DNA of 25,307 nucleotides from a virus, in the IMG/VR virus record IMGVR_UViG_3300006865_000387, positions 1 to 25,307 of that record. One strand, 5' to 3'. Numbering within the stretch: the stretch's first letter is position 1; each line of letters starts with the position of its first letter. The translations under genes and the position numbers were made by a program. This document shows positions 2,169-21,767 of the stretch, piece by piece. A model generated the notes under the pieces. It did no database searches. It was not told the origin of the DNA and saw nothing but the letters and a program-made list of their open reading frames with translations.

Positions 2169-2497
2169 CCGTGCCGATCCACGGCGCGGATATCCACACC
2201 GTGGATATCCCGGGCGCCACGTTGACCGCGGGACACCGCCTGGTCGACGGCAAGCTGCTCTGCGACTCGCGGGGCCGGCGGAGCTGGGCACACACGCTGG
2301 CGGTGCCGGCCGCGGTCGTGATCACGCTGTGGTTCATCACCGGCGGCCTGGACATCACGATCGGCTCGCTACACGTGCTGCTCGCCACGCGGTCGGCGGC
2401 CGAGTACGCGCTGGCCGTCGGGGTGTGGCTGGCCTTCCTCGGGCAGCGCGAGTACACGGAGAAGAAGCTGAGCGCGGGAGGCAGCGGTGGGGCTTGA
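2165..2497 (+). CDS. Two-TM membrane protein, candidate holin
   Basis: The ATG at 2165 overlaps the endolysin stop (ATGA). The 110-residue product has a hydrophilic N-terminal part of about 40 residues, two hydrophobic segments (about 43-63, AHTLAVPAAVVITLWFIT, and about 76-91, AEYALAVGVWLAFLG) and a charged C-terminal tail (REYTEKK). Size, two TM helices and position directly after an endolysin fit a class II holin or a related phage membrane protein. No named holin family is recognised. The last 11 bases overlap the GTG start of the spanin-like gene. Confidence 0.65.
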   Translation: MTVPIHGADIHTVDIPGATLTAGHRLVDGKLLCDSRGRRSWAHTLAVPAAVVITLWFITGGLDITIGSLHVLLATRSAAEYALAVGVWLAFLGQREYTEKKLSAGGSGGA

Positions 2498-3095
2498 GCT
2501 GCTGCTCGGGCCGCTGCTCGGCAAAATCCTGCCCTGGGTCGTCGGCGCCCTCGCCGTACTCGGCCTCTACATCGGCATCAAGCGCAAGGGGGCCAGCGAG
2601 GAGCACGCGCGCCACCAGCAGGCGACGATCGCGGCCCAGCAGGCCGCTCAGCAGCGGATCGACGACGCGCGCGACGCCGACCGAGCGGTGGACGAGGCCA
2701 CGCGTGCCCGCATCGCGAAGGCCAGCCCGCCTCCGGCGCCGGCGCCGCCGCCGACTGGCCACAAGCCGGGCGACCGGTTCCAGTTCTCCTGGCTCGTCGG
2801 CATCGCCCTGGCCGGCCTGAGCGGCTGCGCGGCGGTCGCCGCCGCGCCGACCGTGCGCATCGACGTGCCGGCGCGTCCGGTGCTGCCCGCCTGCCCAGAG
2901 CCGCCGCGGCCTGCGGGCACGATCACGCGTTCGGAGAGCGGCGGGCTCGGCGTCCTGCTGACGATCGGGGACGCGGACTCGCTCCGGACGTTCCTGCGCG
3001 AGGCGCCGGCCTGCTGGACGATCCGCGAGCTGCTGCTCGACGGGCACATCACGAAGCTCGAGAACCGGCTGCGCGCCGTCGGGGGTGCGCGATGA
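2487..3095 (+). CDS. Spanin-like fusion: i-spanin-like N-terminus and o-spanin-like lipobox region
   Basis: The 202-residue protein starts at GTG 2487. The N-terminal half reads like an inner-membrane spanin (Rz): a TM helix at about 11-31 followed by an Ala/Gln/Arg-rich helical stretch at 35-80. A Pro-rich linker (81-94) leads to a second hydrophobic segment, F-S-W-L-V-G-I-A-L-A-G-L-S-G-C114, which is a good lipobox, followed by the Pro- and Cys-rich start typical of outer-membrane spanins (Rz1). In most phages these are two genes. Here both are in one frame without a stop. An in-frame GTG at 2688 might allow a separate o-spanin. Spanins join inner and outer membranes at the end of lysis, so a diderm host is implied. 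The C-terminal 60 residues are not recognised. Confidence 0.6.
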   Translation: MGLELLLGPLLGKILPWVVGALAVLGLYIGIKRKGASEEHARHQQATIAAQQAAQQRIDDARDADRAVDEATRARIAKASPPPAPAPPPTGHKPGDRFQFSWLVGIALAGLSGCAAVAAAPTVRIDVPARPVLPACPEPPRPAGTITRSESGGLGVLLTIGDADSLRTFLREAPACWTIRELLLDGHITKLENRLRAVGGAR

Positions 3096-3481
3096 GGCTG
3101 GCGGTGCAGGCCCCGCGTGTCCAGGTGGACACCATCGTCGTGCGAGGCGGCGAGGCTGTCGGGGGGTTCAAGTCCCCCGCGGGGCGCCATCGAGCTCCGG
3201 CGCGGCGCGACCCCTGGCGCGCCGTCGTCGGTGCGGTCGTCGGAGCGCTGGCCGCCGTCGCCGCGGCCGGCGTTCCGGCGAGCGCGGGCGCCCAGGAGCT
3301 GCCGACCCCAGGGGGCGTGCTCGCGCGCGAGGTCACCGCCGCCGAGCTGGCCGACCTCGAGGCGCTGCGCGCCGAGGCGCGACGGGCGCTGGGCGGCTGC
3401 GACGTCCGCCTGGCGATGCGGACCCATCCCGACGAGCCTGGGCTCATCGAGCTACTCGCCTGGTGCGCGGAGCGCAGCTGA
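3092..3481 (+). CDS. Membrane-associated hypothetical protein overlapping a tRNA-like element
   Basis: The ATG at 3092 overlaps the spanin stop (ATGA), and the stop overlaps the next ATG (TGATG), so 129 residues are likely translated. Residues 1-43 are basic and are encoded largely by the tRNA-like element. Residues about 44-66 (W-R-A-V-V-G-A-V-V-G-A-L-A-A-V) form a hydrophobic helix with an A-S-A-G-A end that could be a signal peptide or TM segment. The C-terminal 60 residues are helical and contain two cysteines. No in-frame ATG, GTG or TTG start lies between the tRNA-like element and the hydrophobic segment; a GTG at 3140 is the latest option before it. Function is unknown; position suggests a lysis or envelope role. 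Confidence 0.5.
   Translation: MRLAVQAPRVQVDTIVVRGGEAVGGFKSPAGRHRAPARRDPWRAVVGAVVGALAAVAAAGVPASAGAQELPTPGGVLAREVTAAELADLEALRAEARRALGGCDVRLAMRTHPDEPGLIELLAWCAERS
3110..3189 (+). tRNA. tRNA-like cloverleaf with encoded CCA (possible degenerate tRNA)
   Basis: Read directly: a 7-bp perfect acceptor stem, GCCCCGC (3110-3116) with GCGGGGC (3179-3185); discriminator G3186; CCA at 3187-3189; and a perfect T arm with stem GGGGG (3162-3166)/CCCCC (3174-3178) around the consensus T loop TTCAAGT. Inside are a 6-bp hairpin GTGTCC/GGACAC with loop AGGT (3117-3132) in the D-arm place and TCGTCG/CGGCGA (3135-3153) with loop TGCGAGG in the anticodon place. Total length is 80 nt. Deviations: a 4-nt D loop, no U8, and G instead of U33 in the anticodon loop (CGA would be the triplet). 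It lies in the sense direction inside a coding gene. It may be a decayed tRNA, a tRNA mimic or an attachment-site relic. Confidence 0.5.
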
Positions 3482-3825
3482 TGGTCGAGCGGGCCCGGCA
3501 CGCGGCGCAGGAGTTCTTGCCGTGGGCGGCGCTCGCCGTGTTCACGGGCGCGGCGATCTGGGCCGACATCGGCCCCGAGATGCGGGAGCTGCTCTTCAAG
3601 TGGGGCCCCGGACTCTTGATCTTCCTCGTGATCGCGCAGCACGTCCCGACGTTGGTCCGCGCCCAGGCCCGGCAGGCCGACGCGATGGGCGCCGTCGCCC
3701 GGCAGCTCGAGGATCTGCCGCGTCGCGACGAGCTGAAGTTCCAGGACGTCATCATCGGCCAGGAGCTCATCCTCCGCGAGCTGGCCGACGTCAAGGCGAG
3801 GCTCGATGAGCAGCGTGCACGCTGA
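3481..3825 (+). CDS. DUF2730-like phage membrane protein (Mu gp25 position)
   Basis: The ATG at 3481 overlaps the previous stop (TGATG). The 114-residue product has two hydrophobic segments (about 13-30 and 40-56) and then a long soluble helix with the pattern A-R-Q-L-E-D-L-P-R-R-D-E-L ... L-R-E-L-A-D-V-K-A-R-L-D. A membrane anchor followed by 'LP-x-x-x-x-L' and a heptad helix is the layout of the DUF2730 family (Mu gp25). In Mu-like phages this gene sits between the lysis genes and the small terminase, exactly as here. Its biological role is not established. Because it has two hydrophobic segments rather than one, a holin role is an alternative. Confidence 0.65.
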   Translation: MVERARHAAQEFLPWAALAVFTGAAIWADIGPEMRELLFKWGPGLLIFLVIAQHVPTLVRAQARQADAMGAVARQLEDLPRRDELKFQDVIIGQELILRELADVKARLDEQRAR

Positions 3826-9090: not shown

Positions 9091-11442
9091 ATGGCGCTGA
9101 GCTTCGAGGACCGGCAGCAGAAGATCCGGACCGCGCTCGAGCAGAAGTTTCCCCGGCGCGAGGGCCAGTACGAGGCCGGGCCGTGGCTGGTGGCCACGTT
9201 CGACGACGTCGCGGTGATCCAGCGCGACGGCAAGCTCTGGCGCCTGCCGTACACCGTGACCAACGAGCAGGACGTCACGCTCGGGGAGCTCGAGCTCGTG
9301 GAGGTGCAGTACGAGCCGGTCAGCGAGGCGGTGGCCTTCGAGCGCTCGCGCGAGAAGGACGGCTCGGCCTGGGAGGTGCGGATCCTGAAGTTCGGGCGCT
9401 CGGGCAACGGCTTTCTCTGGACGCGGGAGAGTGGCGAGGCGCTCCTGCCGCACCTCGAGGGCGCGCCGATCGGGCTGTATACCAGCGCGGCTGGCGTCGC
9501 CGGTCACCTGCCCGAGCATGCGGTCGTCGTCGCCGGCGGCGGCCTCGTCCGCAACATCGTGGGCCATACCGCGACGGCCCGCCTCGAGGCCGACGGCGTC
9601 TACGCGACCGCGCACATCCACGAGGACGCGAGCTGGCTGCGCAAGAAGCTCCTCACGCTCGAGCAGGGCGGCGTGCTCGGCAAGACGCTCGGGCTCTCGG
9701 TCGACACCCTCTGCGGCTTCATCCCCGTCCGCGTCCAGGAGGGCCTGAGCCGCTGGGTGCGGACGGTCAAGCAGCTCATCTCGACGGACATCGTCACGGC
9801 GCCCTCCGCGGACGGGCGCTTCATCCGGGCGACGGCGGGGCCGTTGCTCACCACCCAGGAGGACTGCATGACGCGCAGCCAGCTGATCGCGGTCATCAAG
9901 GAACACCGGCCCCAGCTGCTCGAGGGGCGGGTCGTCGAGAGCCTGACCGACGCCGACGTCGAGGGCCTCGTGCGCGAGGCGCTCAAGCCGCCCGCCGCGC
10001 CGGCGCCGGTGGAGAAGCCCGAGTGGGCGAAGGCGCTCGAGGTCGAGCTGAGCCAGACGCGGGTGCGTGAGGCCCTCGTGGCCTCGAAGCTGCCCGGACC
10101 CATCACGGAGAAGCTCGGCAAGCAGTTCGCCGGGCGCGTCGTGGAGGCCAAGGAGCTCGAGGACGCGATCAAGGCCGAGCGCGAGGTTCTGGCGCGCCTC
10201 ACCGAGAGCGGCACGCCGTCGGGCTTCGGGGAGCGCCGCCGCGCCGAGATCCTGACGGCGCCCCGCGACAAGGTCCAGGCCGCCATGGACCGGCTGTTCG
10301 GGGTCACGCCGGAGCGCTTCGGCCGGATCCTCGAGTCGCTGCCCATGAGCGAGTACGCCGTGGCGCGCGTGCGCGAGAGCCTCGCCCCCAACGCCGAGGC
10401 CCACAAGGACCGCGGCCTGGACTTCGGCGGGTCCCTGCGACGCGCCTACGTCGAGCTGACGGGCGACGTCGAGGTCAGCGGCTTCATCCAGCCCGGACGC
10501 GCCTCCGAAGCGATCGCCACCACGACCTGGGTGAACATCCTCGCCAACTCGCTCCACCGTCTGCTGCTCCAGGACTACGCCGCCGTGGACTACAAGGAGC
10601 GCTCGATCGCCCAGTTCGGGCGCGCCACGGACTTCCGCACCAAGGAGACGGTGCACCTCAACTACTTCAGCGACCTGCAGGAGTTCGACCCCCAGGCGCA
10701 GGATTACCCGAACATCGCCGAGCCCGGCGACGGCGCGGTGTCCTACGCGGTGAGCGGGCGCGGCGGCGTCCTCACCATCACGCGCCGCACCATCATCAAC
10801 GACGATCTGGGCGCCGTGCAGCGCCTGATGTCGCGAATGGGGCGGGCGGCGCGGCGGACGCTGGCGCGCTTCATCTGGTCGTTCTGGACCGGCAACGCCG
10901 CCTTCGACATCGATGGCCTGGCGTGGTTCCACGCGACCCACGCCAACACGGGATCGACGGCCCTCACGGCCAACCTCGCCGGCGCGAACGAGGTGCTGGC
11001 CAAGATCATCCAGCTCGCCGACATGCTGGAGGCCGGCTCGAACGAGAAGCTGGGGCTGCCGTCGATGGACGCGCTGTGGCTCGACGTCCCGCACGCGCTC
11101 TATGGCGTGGCCAAGCAGATCAACGACTCGCCCGAGTTCGGCGCGGGCAACGTCAATCCGGTGCTCAAGCACTTCGGCCAGAACGGCGAGCGCATCAACG
11201 CCAACCCGCTCTTCGCCGATGCCACGGACTGGGGCGTGCACGTCGACCCGCGCGCCGGCGGCCGCGAGTCGATCGTCGTCGACTTCCTCAACGGCCGGGA
11301 GGAGCCCGAGTTCTTCGTCGCCGACCAGCCCACCGTGGGCCAGACGTTCATCGGCGACAAGAACCAGATGAAGATCCGCCACGAGTACGGCGGCGACATC
11401 CAGGACTTCCGCGGCGCGACGAAGAACGTGGTGGCCGGGTAG
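9091..11442 (+). CDS. Fused prohead protease - scaffold - major capsid protein
   Basis: A 783-residue open frame starts at ATG 9091 behind ggagggg. Residues 1-90 form a small beta domain (W-L-V-A-T-F-D-D-V-A-V-I-Q-R-D-G-K-L-W-R-L-P-Y). Residues about 90-255 read as a prohead protease, with A-T-A-H-I-H-E-D, W-L-R-K-K-L-L-T-L-E-Q-G-G-V and L-G-L-S-V-D, where His and Ser could be catalytic. Residues about 260-430 are helical and scaffold-like. Residues about 440-783 are the capsid protein, with S-G-F-I-Q-P-G-R-A, N-I-L-A-N-S-L-H-R, D-Y-P-N-I-A-E-P-G-D and a C-terminal F-I-G-D-K-N-Q-M-K-I-R-H-E-Y-G-G. Such fusions keep scaffold, protease and coat in one transcript and need proteolytic maturation. 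Domain limits are approximate. Confidence 0.85.
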   Translation: MALSFEDRQQKIRTALEQKFPRREGQYEAGPWLVATFDDVAVIQRDGKLWRLPYTVTNEQDVTLGELELVEVQYEPVSEAVAFERSREKDGSAWEVRILKFGRSGNGFLWTRESGEALLPHLEGAPIGLYTSAAGVAGHLPEHAVVVAGGGLVRNIVGHTATARLEADGVYATAHIHEDASWLRKKLLTLEQGGVLGKTLGLSVDTLCGFIPVRVQEGLSRWVRTVKQLISTDIVTAPSADGRFIRATAGPLLTTQEDCMTRSQLIAVIKEHRPQLLEGRVVESLTDADVEGLVREALKPPAAPAPVEKPEWAKALEVELSQTRVREALVASKLPGPITEKLGKQFAGRVVEAKELEDAIKAEREVLARLTESGTPSGFGERRRAEILTAPRDKVQAAMDRLFGVTPERFGRILESLPMSEYAVARVRESLAPNAEAHKDRGLDFGGSLRRAYVELTGDVEVSGFIQPGRASEAIATTTWVNILANSLHRLLLQDYAAVDYKERSIAQFGRATDFRTKETVHLNYFSDLQEFDPQAQDYPNIAEPGDGAVSYAVSGRGGVLTITRRTIINDDLGAVQRLMSRMGRAARRTLARFIWSFWTGNAAFDIDGLAWFHATHANTGSTALTANLAGANEVLAKIIQLADMLEAGSNEKLGLPSMDALWLDVPHALYGVAKQINDSPEFGAGNVNPVLKHFGQNGERINANPLFADATDWGVHVDPRAGGRESIVVDFLNGREEPEFFVADQPTVGQTFIGDKNQMKIRHEYGGDIQDFRGATKNVVAG
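9857..9870 (+). promoter_or_regulatory. Internal Shine-Dalgarno and in-frame ATG for scaffold-capsid product
   Basis: A perfect AGGAGG at 9857-9862 sits five bases before an ATG at 9868 that is in frame with the fusion gene, at its residue 260. Initiation here would give a 524-residue protein starting M-T-R-S-Q-L-I-A-V-I and lacking the protease. The placement at the protease/scaffold border matches in-frame nested scaffold starts such as lambda C/Nu3. This is a sequence-based prediction. Confidence 0.65.
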
Positions 11443-11466: not shown

Positions 11467-11484
11467 GGCGGCCTCCGGGCCGCC
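11467..11484 (+). terminator. GC hairpin after the capsid gene
   Basis: GGCGGCC (11467-11473), loop TCCG and GGCCGCC (11478-11484) form a perfect 7-bp stem 25 bases after the capsid stop. No T-tract follows, so it may be a weak or attenuating terminator, or an RNA-stabilising structure. Confidence 0.5.
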
Positions 11485-11525
11485 TCGCACGACGGGAACG
11501 TGGTCAACGAGGAGGACCAGGAACG

Positions 11526-18703: not shown

Positions 18704-19870
18704 GTGAAGACCTTGACCAGCGCCGCCGCGCTCGCTGCGACCCGCCGTTACGCGTCGCCGCTCTATCTCCTGCGGATCGACTTCACCGCACCGTCTGCGA
18801 AGACCCTCCGATTCTCCGACCGGTATGTGACCGCGCTCGGAGAGCAGTGGCTGCCGTTCGTCGCGAGCTGGGGGTCGCTCGACGAGGCCCTGAGCACGAC
18901 GAGCGTCGACGGCCGCCCCGCCACCGCCTCGGTGACGTTCTTCAACACGAAAGCGATCGAGGGCAAGAGCCGGCTGTCCGACCTGATCCGGACGCCGCTC
19001 AACACGGCCGGCGCCTACGAGTGGGCCTTCGCCAAGGTCACGGTCTACCAGCTGTTCGAGGGGCTCGCGGTCGGCGACGAGGTGCCGGTCGGCGTCTGGT
19101 ATCTCGAGGATCCGACGGAGATCGGCGAAGACCTGCTGACCGTCCGGATGAGCGACGAGGCGCTCGTCCTCGAGCACAAGCTCGCGGTCACGCGCGTGAG
19201 CCGCGATGAGTTCCCCGCCGCCCCGCCCGAAGCAATCGGCCGGAGCATCCGGCGGCCGTTCGGCGTGCTGCGCGGCGTGTCCGTGCTGCCGGTGGTTGAG
19301 AGCGCGACGTCACGCCTGGCCAGCGCGCTGCTCGCGGCCGGGACGTCGATCGTGCTGGACGACGCCAGCCTGTTTCCGGCGACGGGCACGGTGCAGATCG
19401 ACTCCGAGCACATCGTCTACACGTTCAAGTCGGGCAACACGCTGACCGGCCTCACGCGGGCGGCGAACAGCACCACGGCCACCGACCACCAAGACGGCGC
19501 GGTCGTCTATGAGGTGCGCCTGGACGCCAATGCCTACCGCTACGCGGTCGGCGAGAGCTTCGGCAATTTCAAGATCAAGGGCGTCCAACGTCCTCGTCAA
19601 CGGCTCGACCCCAGCGATCTCGCCGGCCATCGAGCCGGATGTGACGACCCTCGTCGCCGGCAAGAGCTTCGCACTCCTGACGTTCCCGTTCCTGGCGAAG
19701 TTCTTCCAGCCGGCCGCCGCGAGCGCCCAGCGAAACATCAGCGTCACGCCGTTCGCGCTGCTCGGCTTCGATGGCGAAAGCGCCGGCTGGCCCACCACGT
19801 ATCAGCAGGTTACGCGCACGATCGCGCCGAGCAGTATCGGCGGCACCACGTCGACCGATCGAATCCTTAA
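18704..19870 (+). CDS. Tail hub/tip protein, N-terminal part (frameshifted after residue 294)
   Basis: The GTG at 18704 begins a frame that is convincing up to about base 19585 (residue 294, F-K-I-K-G-V) and then turns into Arg/Pro-rich out-of-frame sequence ending at 19870. Residues 18-195 are a tail-tip domain with Y-L-L-R-I-D-F, A-S-V-T-F-F-N and G-V-W-Y-L-E-D-P-T-E-I. Residues about 198-270 are a small inserted domain (S-I-V-L-D-D-A-S-L-F-P, V-Q-I-D-S-E-H-I-V-Y-T, L-T-G-L-T-R). The natural continuation is in the +1 frame from 19587 (N-V-L-V-N-G). So this is one gene split by a +1 shift at GTC-C-AAC; a sequencing error or a real mutation are both possible. Confidence 0.75.
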   Translation: MKTLTSAAALAATRRYASPLYLLRIDFTAPSAKTLRFSDRYVTALGEQWLPFVASWGSLDEALSTTSVDGRPATASVTFFNTKAIEGKSRLSDLIRTPLNTAGAYEWAFAKVTVYQLFEGLAVGDEVPVGVWYLEDPTEIGEDLLTVRMSDEALVLEHKLAVTRVSRDEFPAAPPEAIGRSIRRPFGVLRGVSVLPVVESATSRLASALLAAGTSIVLDDASLFPATGTVQIDSEHIVYTFKSGNTLTGLTRAANSTTATDHQDGAVVYEVRLDANAYRYAVGESFGNFKIKGVQRPRQRLDPSDLAGHRAGCDDPRRRQELRTPDVPVPGEVLPAGRRERPAKHQRHAVRAARLRWRKRRLAHHVSAGYAHDRAEQYRRHHVDRSNP

Positions 19871-21767
19871 CTGCCGCGTGCTCGCCCGCAACAATCCGAG
19901 CGACTCGACGCAGGTCAAGCAGGCCCACATCCTGTGGAGGATCAAGCGCCGGCTCTCGGGCGGCTCAGACCTGACCATCGCCTCCGGCGAGTTCCCGCCT
20001 GGCGGCATTGGCGGGGAGGTGAGCGTCGCCGATACGCGTGTCTATGACGCGACGGCGGACGAGATCATCACGTTCGAGTACACGCATGGCGGCGCAGACG
20101 ACGACGACCTGGAATGGATCATCGACCTCTACAAGGTCATCGACCACGCGACCGTGATGGCCGGAGGCGGGCCGACGCGAATCGGCGAGATCACCGTCGA
20201 CGTCGAGGGCATCCGTGACGACGGCAGCGGCACGATCTCCGGGACACCGAGCCTGCTGCTCGAGAACCCGGCCGACATCACGCGCTTCATCCTGACGCAG
20301 CTGTACGGCGTCGCGTCCGCGAGCCTCGGCTCGACCTGGGCGACGACGCGGGCGCTGCTGGCCGTCGGCGGGTACAAGTGGGCCTTCCTGCTGGAGTTCG
20401 AGGAGTTCTCGAAGCTGCGCCTCCGCCTCGGTGAGCAGGCGCGCTCGATTCTGTACCTGGCGGCCGGCGTCTGGGAGCTCAAGTTCTTGCCCGACAACCC
20501 GACGGCCCAGCTCACGCTCGACTACATGCGGGACGTGGCGCGCGACGTCCCCGTCAAGATCCGCCGCACACCGCGCGCCGACGTCCGCAATAGCATCTGG
20601 GTCTACAGCCAGCGTGACGACGCCTCCGGCGACTACCGGCGCCTGAGAAAGCACGAGGACCTGACGCAGCCGGGCCTGACGGAGGTGTTCCAGCACGACC
20701 TCCGGCTCGACCTGGTACAGGACGCCGCCACGGCGGACCTGCTCGGCGCCTTCTGGCTCTCACAATGGAAGCGGCAGCGGTTCGACATCGAGTTCACCGC
20801 CTTCTGGAACGTCCTCGCGGCCGAGCCCGTCGACTACGTGCGCCTCGCGAACCATCCCGCCCTCGCCGCGCACGGCCTGCCCGTGCTCCGGGTCATCGGG
20901 AAGCGCTCTGGGCTGGGCGAGGAACACCCGGGGCGCATCCGGCTGCGTGGAATCGAAGTCGCGACGGATCGGCCGACGGAGACCCCGGACGGTGAGGAGG
21001 AGCTGATGCGCGTGCAAGGACTGGTCGGCGCCAACAACGCGGGCACGCCGAACACGCAATACGACCTGAACGCCGATGCCGTCGTCGCGCGCGATCCCGG
21101 GCTCGGGCAGCGTTACGTCCGGATCGGCGGATCGCCGATCACCTGCAACATCGCGACGGCGGGACCGGCGGCGAACGGCCGCGACCAGTCGGGCGCGTTC
21201 ACGGCCGGCTCGTTCGTCCATTTCTACTTCATTCACAACCCAGGCACGGACACGTGGGCGACGCTGGCGAGCGCCACGGCGCCGCCGAACGGGCCGACGC
21301 TGCCGAGCGGGTACACCGCGTGGGCCTACGCCACGACGGTCCGGTTCAGCGGCGCCTCGGCACTGTACAGCACCTACGCGCGCGGCCCGGTCGTGCTCTA
21401 CGCGGTGCCGTTTACCGACCCCGCCGTCCTAGTGGGCGGCGCAGCGGCAGTCGATACCGGCATCACGATCTCCGGGTTTGTGCCTTCCAACGCGGCCCGA
21501 ATCATGCTCGCGCTGAGGATGTACAACACTGGAGTGAGCAGCGGCGGTCAGGACAGCCTGCTGCTCCGGGTCGTCGCCGGTGGGTCGAACGTCGCTCGCC
21601 ACGACCATCTCTCCACCAGCACGGCTGCTGGCATCTCGAGCAGCGAGGCCGTCATTCCGAACGTCGGCCAGACGCTCCGCTACCTGATCTCCCGCTCGTC
21701 GTCCGGCGGCACCGTGCAGGCCGACGTCTACATCAAGGGCTACAGCGTGCCGAACGGGGACGCCTGA
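19587..21767 (+). CDS. Tail hub/tip protein, main and C-terminal part with receptor-type domain
   Basis: From 19587 the frame reads N-V-L-V-N-G-S-T-P and continues for 726 residues; with the upstream part the protein would be about 1,020 residues. An independent start is doubtful (the ATG at 19509 would add out-of-frame residues). The middle part (about 20350-20960) holds a hub-like region with W-A-F-L-L-E-F-E-E-F-S-K-L-R-L and D-Y-V-R-L-A-N-H-P. The last 250 residues include N-T-Q-Y-D-L-N-A-D, V-H-F-Y-F-I-H-N-P-G and T-L-P-S-G-Y-T-A-W-A-Y. That 'YxxYxxxNP ... LPSGYT' pattern is common to phage fibre C-terminal domains, so receptor binding is likely. Its stop overlaps the next ATG (TGATG). 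Confidence 0.8.
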   Translation, partial: NVLVNGSTPAISPAIEPDVTTLVAGKSFALLTFPFLAKFFQPAAASAQRNISVTPFALLGFDGESAGWPTTYQQVTRTIAPSSIGGTTSTDRILNCRVLARNNPSDSTQVKQAHILWRIKRRLSGGSDLTIASGEFPPGGIGGEVSVADTRVYDATADEIITFEYTHGGADDDDLEWIIDLYKVIDHATVMAGGGPTRIGEITVDVEGIRDDGSGTISGTPSLLLENPADITRFILTQLYGVASASLGSTWATTRALLAVGGYKWAFLLEFEEFSKLRLRLGEQARSILYLAAGVWELKFLPDNPTAQLTLDYMRDVARDVPVKIRRTPRADVRNSIWVYSQRDDASGDYRRLRKHEDLTQPGLTEVFQHDLRLDLVQDAATADLLGAFWLSQWKRQRFDIEFTAFWNVLAAEPVDYVRLANHPALAAHGLPVLRVIGKRSGLGEEHPGRIRLRGIEVATDRPTETPDGEEELMRVQGLVGANNAGTPNTQYDLNADAVVARDPGLGQRYVRIGGSPITCNIATAGPAANGRDQSGAFTAGSFVHFYFIHNPGTDTWATLASATAPPNGPTLPSGYTAWAYATTVRFSGASALYSTYARGPVVLYAVPFTDPAVLVGGAAAVDTGITISGFVPSNAARIMLALRMYNTGVSSGGQDSLLLRVVAGGSNVARHDHLSTSTAAGISSSEAVIPNVGQTLRYLISRSSSGGTVQADVYIKGYSVPNGDA

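Follow-up and report, generated by a model that had tools for sequence, protein, structure and literature searches.

The tRNA-Sec gene (selC) is nested inside the selB open reading frame (ORF) in Alphaproteobacteria, and cutting of the transcript at the nested tRNA has been proposed to lower expression of the gene that contains it (Mukai 2021, PMC8124441). This is the one report of a tRNA nested in a bacterial ORF that we found, and it describes itself as the first (PMC8124441). According to a review, an allo-tRNA(UAU) pseudogene overlaps a transposon-related ORF in Edaphobacter C40 (Mukai 2017, reviewed in PMC7609411). The layout of tRNA-Sec includes a 6-bp D stem and a 4-nt D loop (PMC7609411), and a long D stem has also been attributed to 9/3 allo-tRNAs (PMC7590224).

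The sequence analyzed here, referred to as the window, is an IMG/VR virus record of 25,307 bases with a G+C content of 71.6%. It carries an 80-nt tRNA-like cloverleaf (the element) at 3110 to 3189 of the plus strand, with an acceptor stem, a D arm, a T arm, G73, and an encoded CCA. The element resembles selC in selB in that the whole tRNA-like sequence lies in an ORF with overlapping operon start and stop signals and has a 6-bp D stem with a 4-nt loop; selC remnants are translated as a protein extension, as may be the case here. However, the selB-nested sequences are functional tRNAs or truncated remnants located at the 3' end of the gene and conserved across genera, whereas the element is phage-borne, lies at the 5' end, seems to have no anticodon that could be used, and is without known relatives. 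The Edaphobacter pseudogene, as the review presents it, is likewise a noncanonical tRNA-like sequence on a mobile-element ORF, and it is unusable for Escherichia coli translation. Compared by published description only, the acceptor domain of allo-tRNAs is 8/4 or 9/3 and their variable arm is long, whereas the element has a 7/5 domain (8/4 is drawable) and intact stems. Since nested tRNAs are already known in bacterial genes, the element is a curiosity. A phage case at a gene start, if true, would mean that recruitment of tRNA sequence for coding is possible, and an mRNA that contains an intact acceptor/T module could thereby be a target of RNase P.

Anatomy and rarity of the cloverleaf

The element is composed of the following parts.

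3110 to 3116, plus strand: 5' strand of the acceptor stem, GCCCCGC, with 7 of 7 Watson-Crick pairs to 3179 to 3185
3117 to 3132, plus strand: D arm, GTGTCC-AGGT-GGACAC, with a 6-bp stem and a 4-nt loop
3133 to 3161, plus strand: degenerate anticodon/variable region with several near-equal foldings
3162 to 3178, plus strand: T arm, GGGGG-TTCAAGT-CCCCC, with 5 of 5 Watson-Crick pairs and a consensus loop
3179 to 3189, plus strand: 3' strand of the acceptor stem, GCGGGGC (3179 to 3185), discriminator G (3186), and CCA (3187 to 3189)

All 18 bp of the acceptor, T, and D stems are perfect. The element nevertheless differs from an ordinary tRNA: the 7-bp acceptor stem, the 5-bp T stem, the TTCRANY loop, and the CCA end are present, but a 5-bp/7-nt anticodon arm with U33, U8, and a normal D loop are missing. 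Position 8 is not U, as G3117 directly follows the acceptor, and no base separates the acceptor from the D stem if all 6 bp of the latter form. Exhaustive enumeration between the D and T arms found no 5-bp stem with a 7-nt loop and U33; an alternative arm with U33 is drawable with a 5-bp stem and a 9-nt loop. Two foldings of the middle region (3133 to 3161) lie 0.1 kcal/mol apart, and a 6-bp variable-arm hairpin (3146-3151/3155-3160) occurs in the minimum free energy (MFE) structure with a pair probability of about 0.37. The mean pair probability of the acceptor stem is 1.00 for the element alone and 0.74 to 0.99 in longer contexts, in which the acceptor and D helices also dominate. Owing to the run of G residues, the T stem has a predicted pairing of only about 0.2 in its exact register. 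The acceptor domain can be drawn as 7/5 or, by adding G3117-C3178, as 8/4.

ARAGORN called the element as the sole tRNA in the window, a tRNA-Ser(CGA) of 80 nt, with an anticodon stem CGTCG/CGGCG at 3136-3140/3148-3152. An earlier note on this DNA had described the cloverleaf at exactly these coordinates, with the 7-bp acceptor, T arm, discriminator, CCA, and two further hairpins, and had proposed the check that this call now answers. The deviations that it listed, a 4-nt D loop and the lack of U8 and U33, were confirmed, U33 being absent from the ARAGORN loop TGCGAGG. The covariance-model check that it suggested turned out less favorably, as no Rfam family passed its cutoff. For the general tRNA model (RF00005), no match at E<=10 was reported past the initial filter of the search tool and none at the gathering score, and the best match, tRNA-Sec (RF01852), reached 29.6 bits, below the gathering cutoff of 47. 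The element shares the 6-bp D stem with a 4-nt loop and G73 with bacterial tRNA-Sec, but there is no TCA within 3133 to 3161 that could supply a UCA anticodon, and the acceptor/T domain is not clearly 8/5. Assignment to a single isotype was dropped because Leu, Asn, and Arg gave the best and similar scores in global matching to 305 tRNAs and ARAGORN indicated Ser.

In dinucleotide-shuffled sequence, ARAGORN made 9 calls in 10.1 Mb (about 0.02 per window), and by itself its call does not weigh heavily in sequence this rich in GC. In contrast, a strict motif consisting of a perfect acceptor, a perfect T stem, the T-loop consensus, and CCA was found 0 times in codon-random sequence (1.57 Gb) and Markov sequence (74 Mb). 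It is expected about 8.5e-6 times per window by the codon-random estimate, a figure that leaves out the adjacent 6-bp D arm. This combination is strong evidence for a tRNA-like element and bears out the earlier view that a joint match of acceptor, T arm, and CCA is unlikely by chance. The folding z-score is only -2.3 versus dinucleotide shuffles and the MFE does not stand out from those of synonymous recodings, which indicates that the evidence lies in the tRNA-specific sequence and helix layout and not in stability.

The surrounding ORF and its neighbors

The small terminase of the window is a member of the Mu Gp27 family, and the nearest named phage for the large terminase is Alteromonadaceae phage B23, with Pseudomonas phage B3 lower in the ranking. 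Judging from the two terminases, the virus is predicted to be of the Mu/B3 type, with a GC-rich bacterium as its likely host. No transposase was identified in the window despite these transposable-type relatives. A lysis-type stretch of three genes lies between the endolysin and the terminases.

1653 to 2168: endolysin, peptidase M15
2487 to 3095, plus strand: upstream gene with a weak Rz-like spanin match (E 0.0046)
3092 to 3481, plus strand: ORF of 129 amino acids (aa) that contains the whole element, with a signal-peptide-like stretch after it
3481 to 3825, plus strand: downstream gene, conserved in contigs L007, L008, and L009

The start of ORF 3092-3481 overlaps the stop of the spanin-like gene as ATGA, in agreement with the earlier note, which had placed the element in a gene with coupled start and stop signals. 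The whole tRNA-like sequence is in frame within this ORF, for which a homologue exists in L009. The sequence from the element to the hydrophobic stretch has no in-frame ATG, GTG, or TTG, and any protein made must therefore be translated through some or all of the element.

For ORF 3092-3481, a single homologue was found, L009:4341-4619, with 42% identity. Its first residues are likewise MR, at a start/stop overlap, and it then enters the signal-peptide-like stretch directly, giving an alignment of MR, a gap of about 36 aa, and RR, in which the gap covers the element-encoded stretch. The gene upstream of the homologue differs in L009, which places the element at a module junction, and L007 and L008 carry different genes at the place of ORF 3092-3481. 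A protein search of viral contigs with ORF 3092-3481 gave no relatives, none were found for the spanin-like gene, and a profile search with the downstream gene recovered only the three contigs already known. An 11-bp exact direct repeat (about 17/19), GCGCGCCGTCG, flanks the element at 3071 to 3081 and 3217 to 3227; it was rejected as an insertion scar because it is too weak, 1.6% of random flanks sharing as much.

In the frame of the gene, the element has G+C contents of 0.81, 0.56, and 0.85 at the three codon positions, a gene-like pattern. The margin of the best frame over the next is 26.4 bits; 0.56% of dinucleotide shuffles and 5 of 289 real tRNAs have a margin at least this large, and none of the 289 attains the absolute score of the best frame. 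Since the codon table was trained on the genes of the window and the comparison tRNAs came from mixed phages and bacteria, this periodicity is supporting evidence only. It fits a long-translated tRNA remnant and, equally, coding sequence that is tRNA-like by chance.

Related tRNAs and the origin of the element

The acceptor GCCCCGC/GCGGGGC is common to about 20 genuine phage tRNAs, found at viral loci matched by an acceptor-only pattern plus CCA, with the isotypes Leu, Thr, Asn, Val, Gly, Lys, and Arg. Among them, a tRNA-Asn (L209) has the acceptor, G73, and CCA identical to those of the element, and a tRNA-Leu (L215) has the same acceptor and most of the T arm. These phage tRNAs thus resemble the element in an identical acceptor, a similar T arm, and an encoded CCA, but theirs are canonical anticodon arms, and U8 is present. 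The 17 bases of the T arm recur identically in a Nitrospiraceae genome (query positions 53 to 69), within a tRNA-Leu (L191). In addition, tRNA genes do occur in this phage group, as shown by an ordinary tRNA-Met in L026, a phage with a related terminase; this tRNA overlaps an ORF end and lies about 3.2 kb upstream of the large terminase.

The element itself was not found elsewhere. In the contigs of the closest relatives compared, it is absent altogether and not merely varied. A pattern of the D arm plus the T arm had no exact match, and relaxing it yielded 15 loci, of which most were ordinary tRNAs or unrelated sequence. With a covariance model built from the one sequence of the element, no convincing copy was found in 84 viral and 62 genome loci, and 19 whole records gave only weak matches to ordinary host tRNAs; 148 genomes of one phylum also gave no convincing copy, a search that was uninformative because it had no positive control. 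Within the window, no stretch of at least 11 bases of the element is repeated elsewhere on the plus strand. Sixteen bases (3136 to 3151) recur exactly on the minus strand at 11479 to 11494 (E 0.003), probably by chance in GC-rich sequence.

The element is probably a phage-tRNA-derived, non-decoding sequence that is translated as an N-terminal extension. A phage tRNA gene would have come to the junction of the spanin-like gene and its downstream neighbor in the lysis region and lost a usable anticodon arm, and it would now be translated as residues 7 to 33 of the 129-aa product, before the signal-peptide-like segment. More speculatively, the intact acceptor, T arm, and CCA might direct an RNase P cut at 3110 of the operon transcript, which would inactivate that mRNA for ORF 3092-3481. 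A tRNA origin is suggested by the rarity of the motif, the ARAGORN call, the acceptor shared with phage tRNAs, the tRNA of L026, and the gap in L009; the missing 5-bp/7-nt anticodon arm with U33 and the gene-like codon periodicity also argue for a remnant. On the other side, the periodicity fits an ordinary coding origin equally well, the isotype cannot be fixed, and with one homologue at 42% identity, an insertion in the lineage of the window and a loss in L009 both fit. Moreover, 18 perfect bp are odd for free decay unless inactivation was recent, and they would point either to a recent loss of the anticodon arm or to a function still served by the folded ends, such as that of an RNase P target. 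The earlier note had offered a decayed phage tRNA captured as coding sequence, a mimic or decoy acting on host factors, and an attachment-site relic. The first is the best supported of the three through the phage-tRNA acceptor, the unusable anticodon arm, and the stretch absent from L009, although the intact stems sit badly with the decay that it supposes. The second may hold, the compared relatives lacking the element and thus giving no covariation for or against it.

Continued use of the folded ends leads to a rather unlikely explanation, in which the structure would be maintained for dual use, with RNase P or a synthetase such as SerRS acting on the acceptor/T/D module and a cut at 3110 lowering expression of ORF 3092-3481. 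The coexistence of 18 perfect bp, the consensus T loop, and CCA with codon periodicity would suit it, as would the dominance of the acceptor and D helices in longer contexts, the tRNA-Sec precedent nested in an ORF with coupled start and stop signals (PMC8124441), and the best Rfam match to tRNA-Sec, with the 6-bp/4-nt D arm being tRNA-Sec- or allo-tRNA-like; G73 and the possible variable arm at 3146 to 3160 suggest SerRS. However, no compared relative keeps the element, so there is no covariation supporting RNA selection, the 29.6 bits fall short of the tRNA-Sec cutoff, the variable- and anticodon-arm foldings are ambiguous, and the T-stem pairing predicted for the exact register is low, at about 0.2. 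It is unlikely that a non-decoding tRNA-like structure, kept at the 5' end of a lysis-region ORF, tunes the gene as a target of RNase P or a synthetase while its bases also specify protein. Chance resemblance of ordinary coding sequence in a phage of 72% GC is quite unlikely: the in-frame periodicity is nearer to that of genes than of tRNAs, the MFE is not unusual among synonymous recodings, and a scan of very many windows would occasionally meet such cases, but the expectation for acceptor, T arm, and CCA is minute even with the D arm uncounted, and the element coincides with the stretch absent from the L009 homologue.

A working noncanonical tRNA is very unlikely. One candidate would have the stem 3135-3139/3149-3153, fully paired, and the 9-nt loop GTGCGAGGC, with U33 and the triplet GCG; a Nitrospira tRNA-Arg aligns to the region of the element at 31 bits, and short D loops occur in tRNA-Sec, with one modeled in a phage tRNA-Met (L160). 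However, we know of no ordinary decoding tRNA with a 9-nt anticodon loop, U8 is missing, and the general tRNA model reports no match. The 3' ends of tRNAs are classic integration sites, which would favor a host tRNA 3' end carried by an integrating element, but such an attachment-site relic is extremely unlikely. The search proposed in the earlier note, for a host tRNA sharing the 3' half, gave none: the exact 26-base 3' end occurs in 0 of 84,980 GTDB species genomes, and none of the viral contigs scanned has a 25-base version. Furthermore, the element includes a 5' half that is perfectly paired to the 3' half, no stretch of 11 or more of its bases has a second copy on the plus strand of the window (though 16 bases recur on the minus strand), and transposable phages of the type suggested by the Mu/B3-type terminases need no tRNA attachment site.

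Other features of the window and of phage tRNAs

The tRNA-Met of L026 (L026:2723-2798) overlaps the end of ORF 1933-2760 and has the anticodon loop CCCATAG, with C and not U at position 33. Another phage tRNA-Met (L160:1117-1187), which adjoins a tRNA-Gln, has the CCAGGTGG D-arm core of the element and a short D loop. In the window, 9091 to 11442 is a single ORF of 783 aa whose C-terminal end matches a capsid family, while a more upstream part matches head maturation protease families. Between ORFs 18704-19870 and 19509-21767 there is an overlap of about 360 bases, and the reading of the first seems to stop making sense near 19600, which may reflect a frameshift, either programmed or due to an assembly error.
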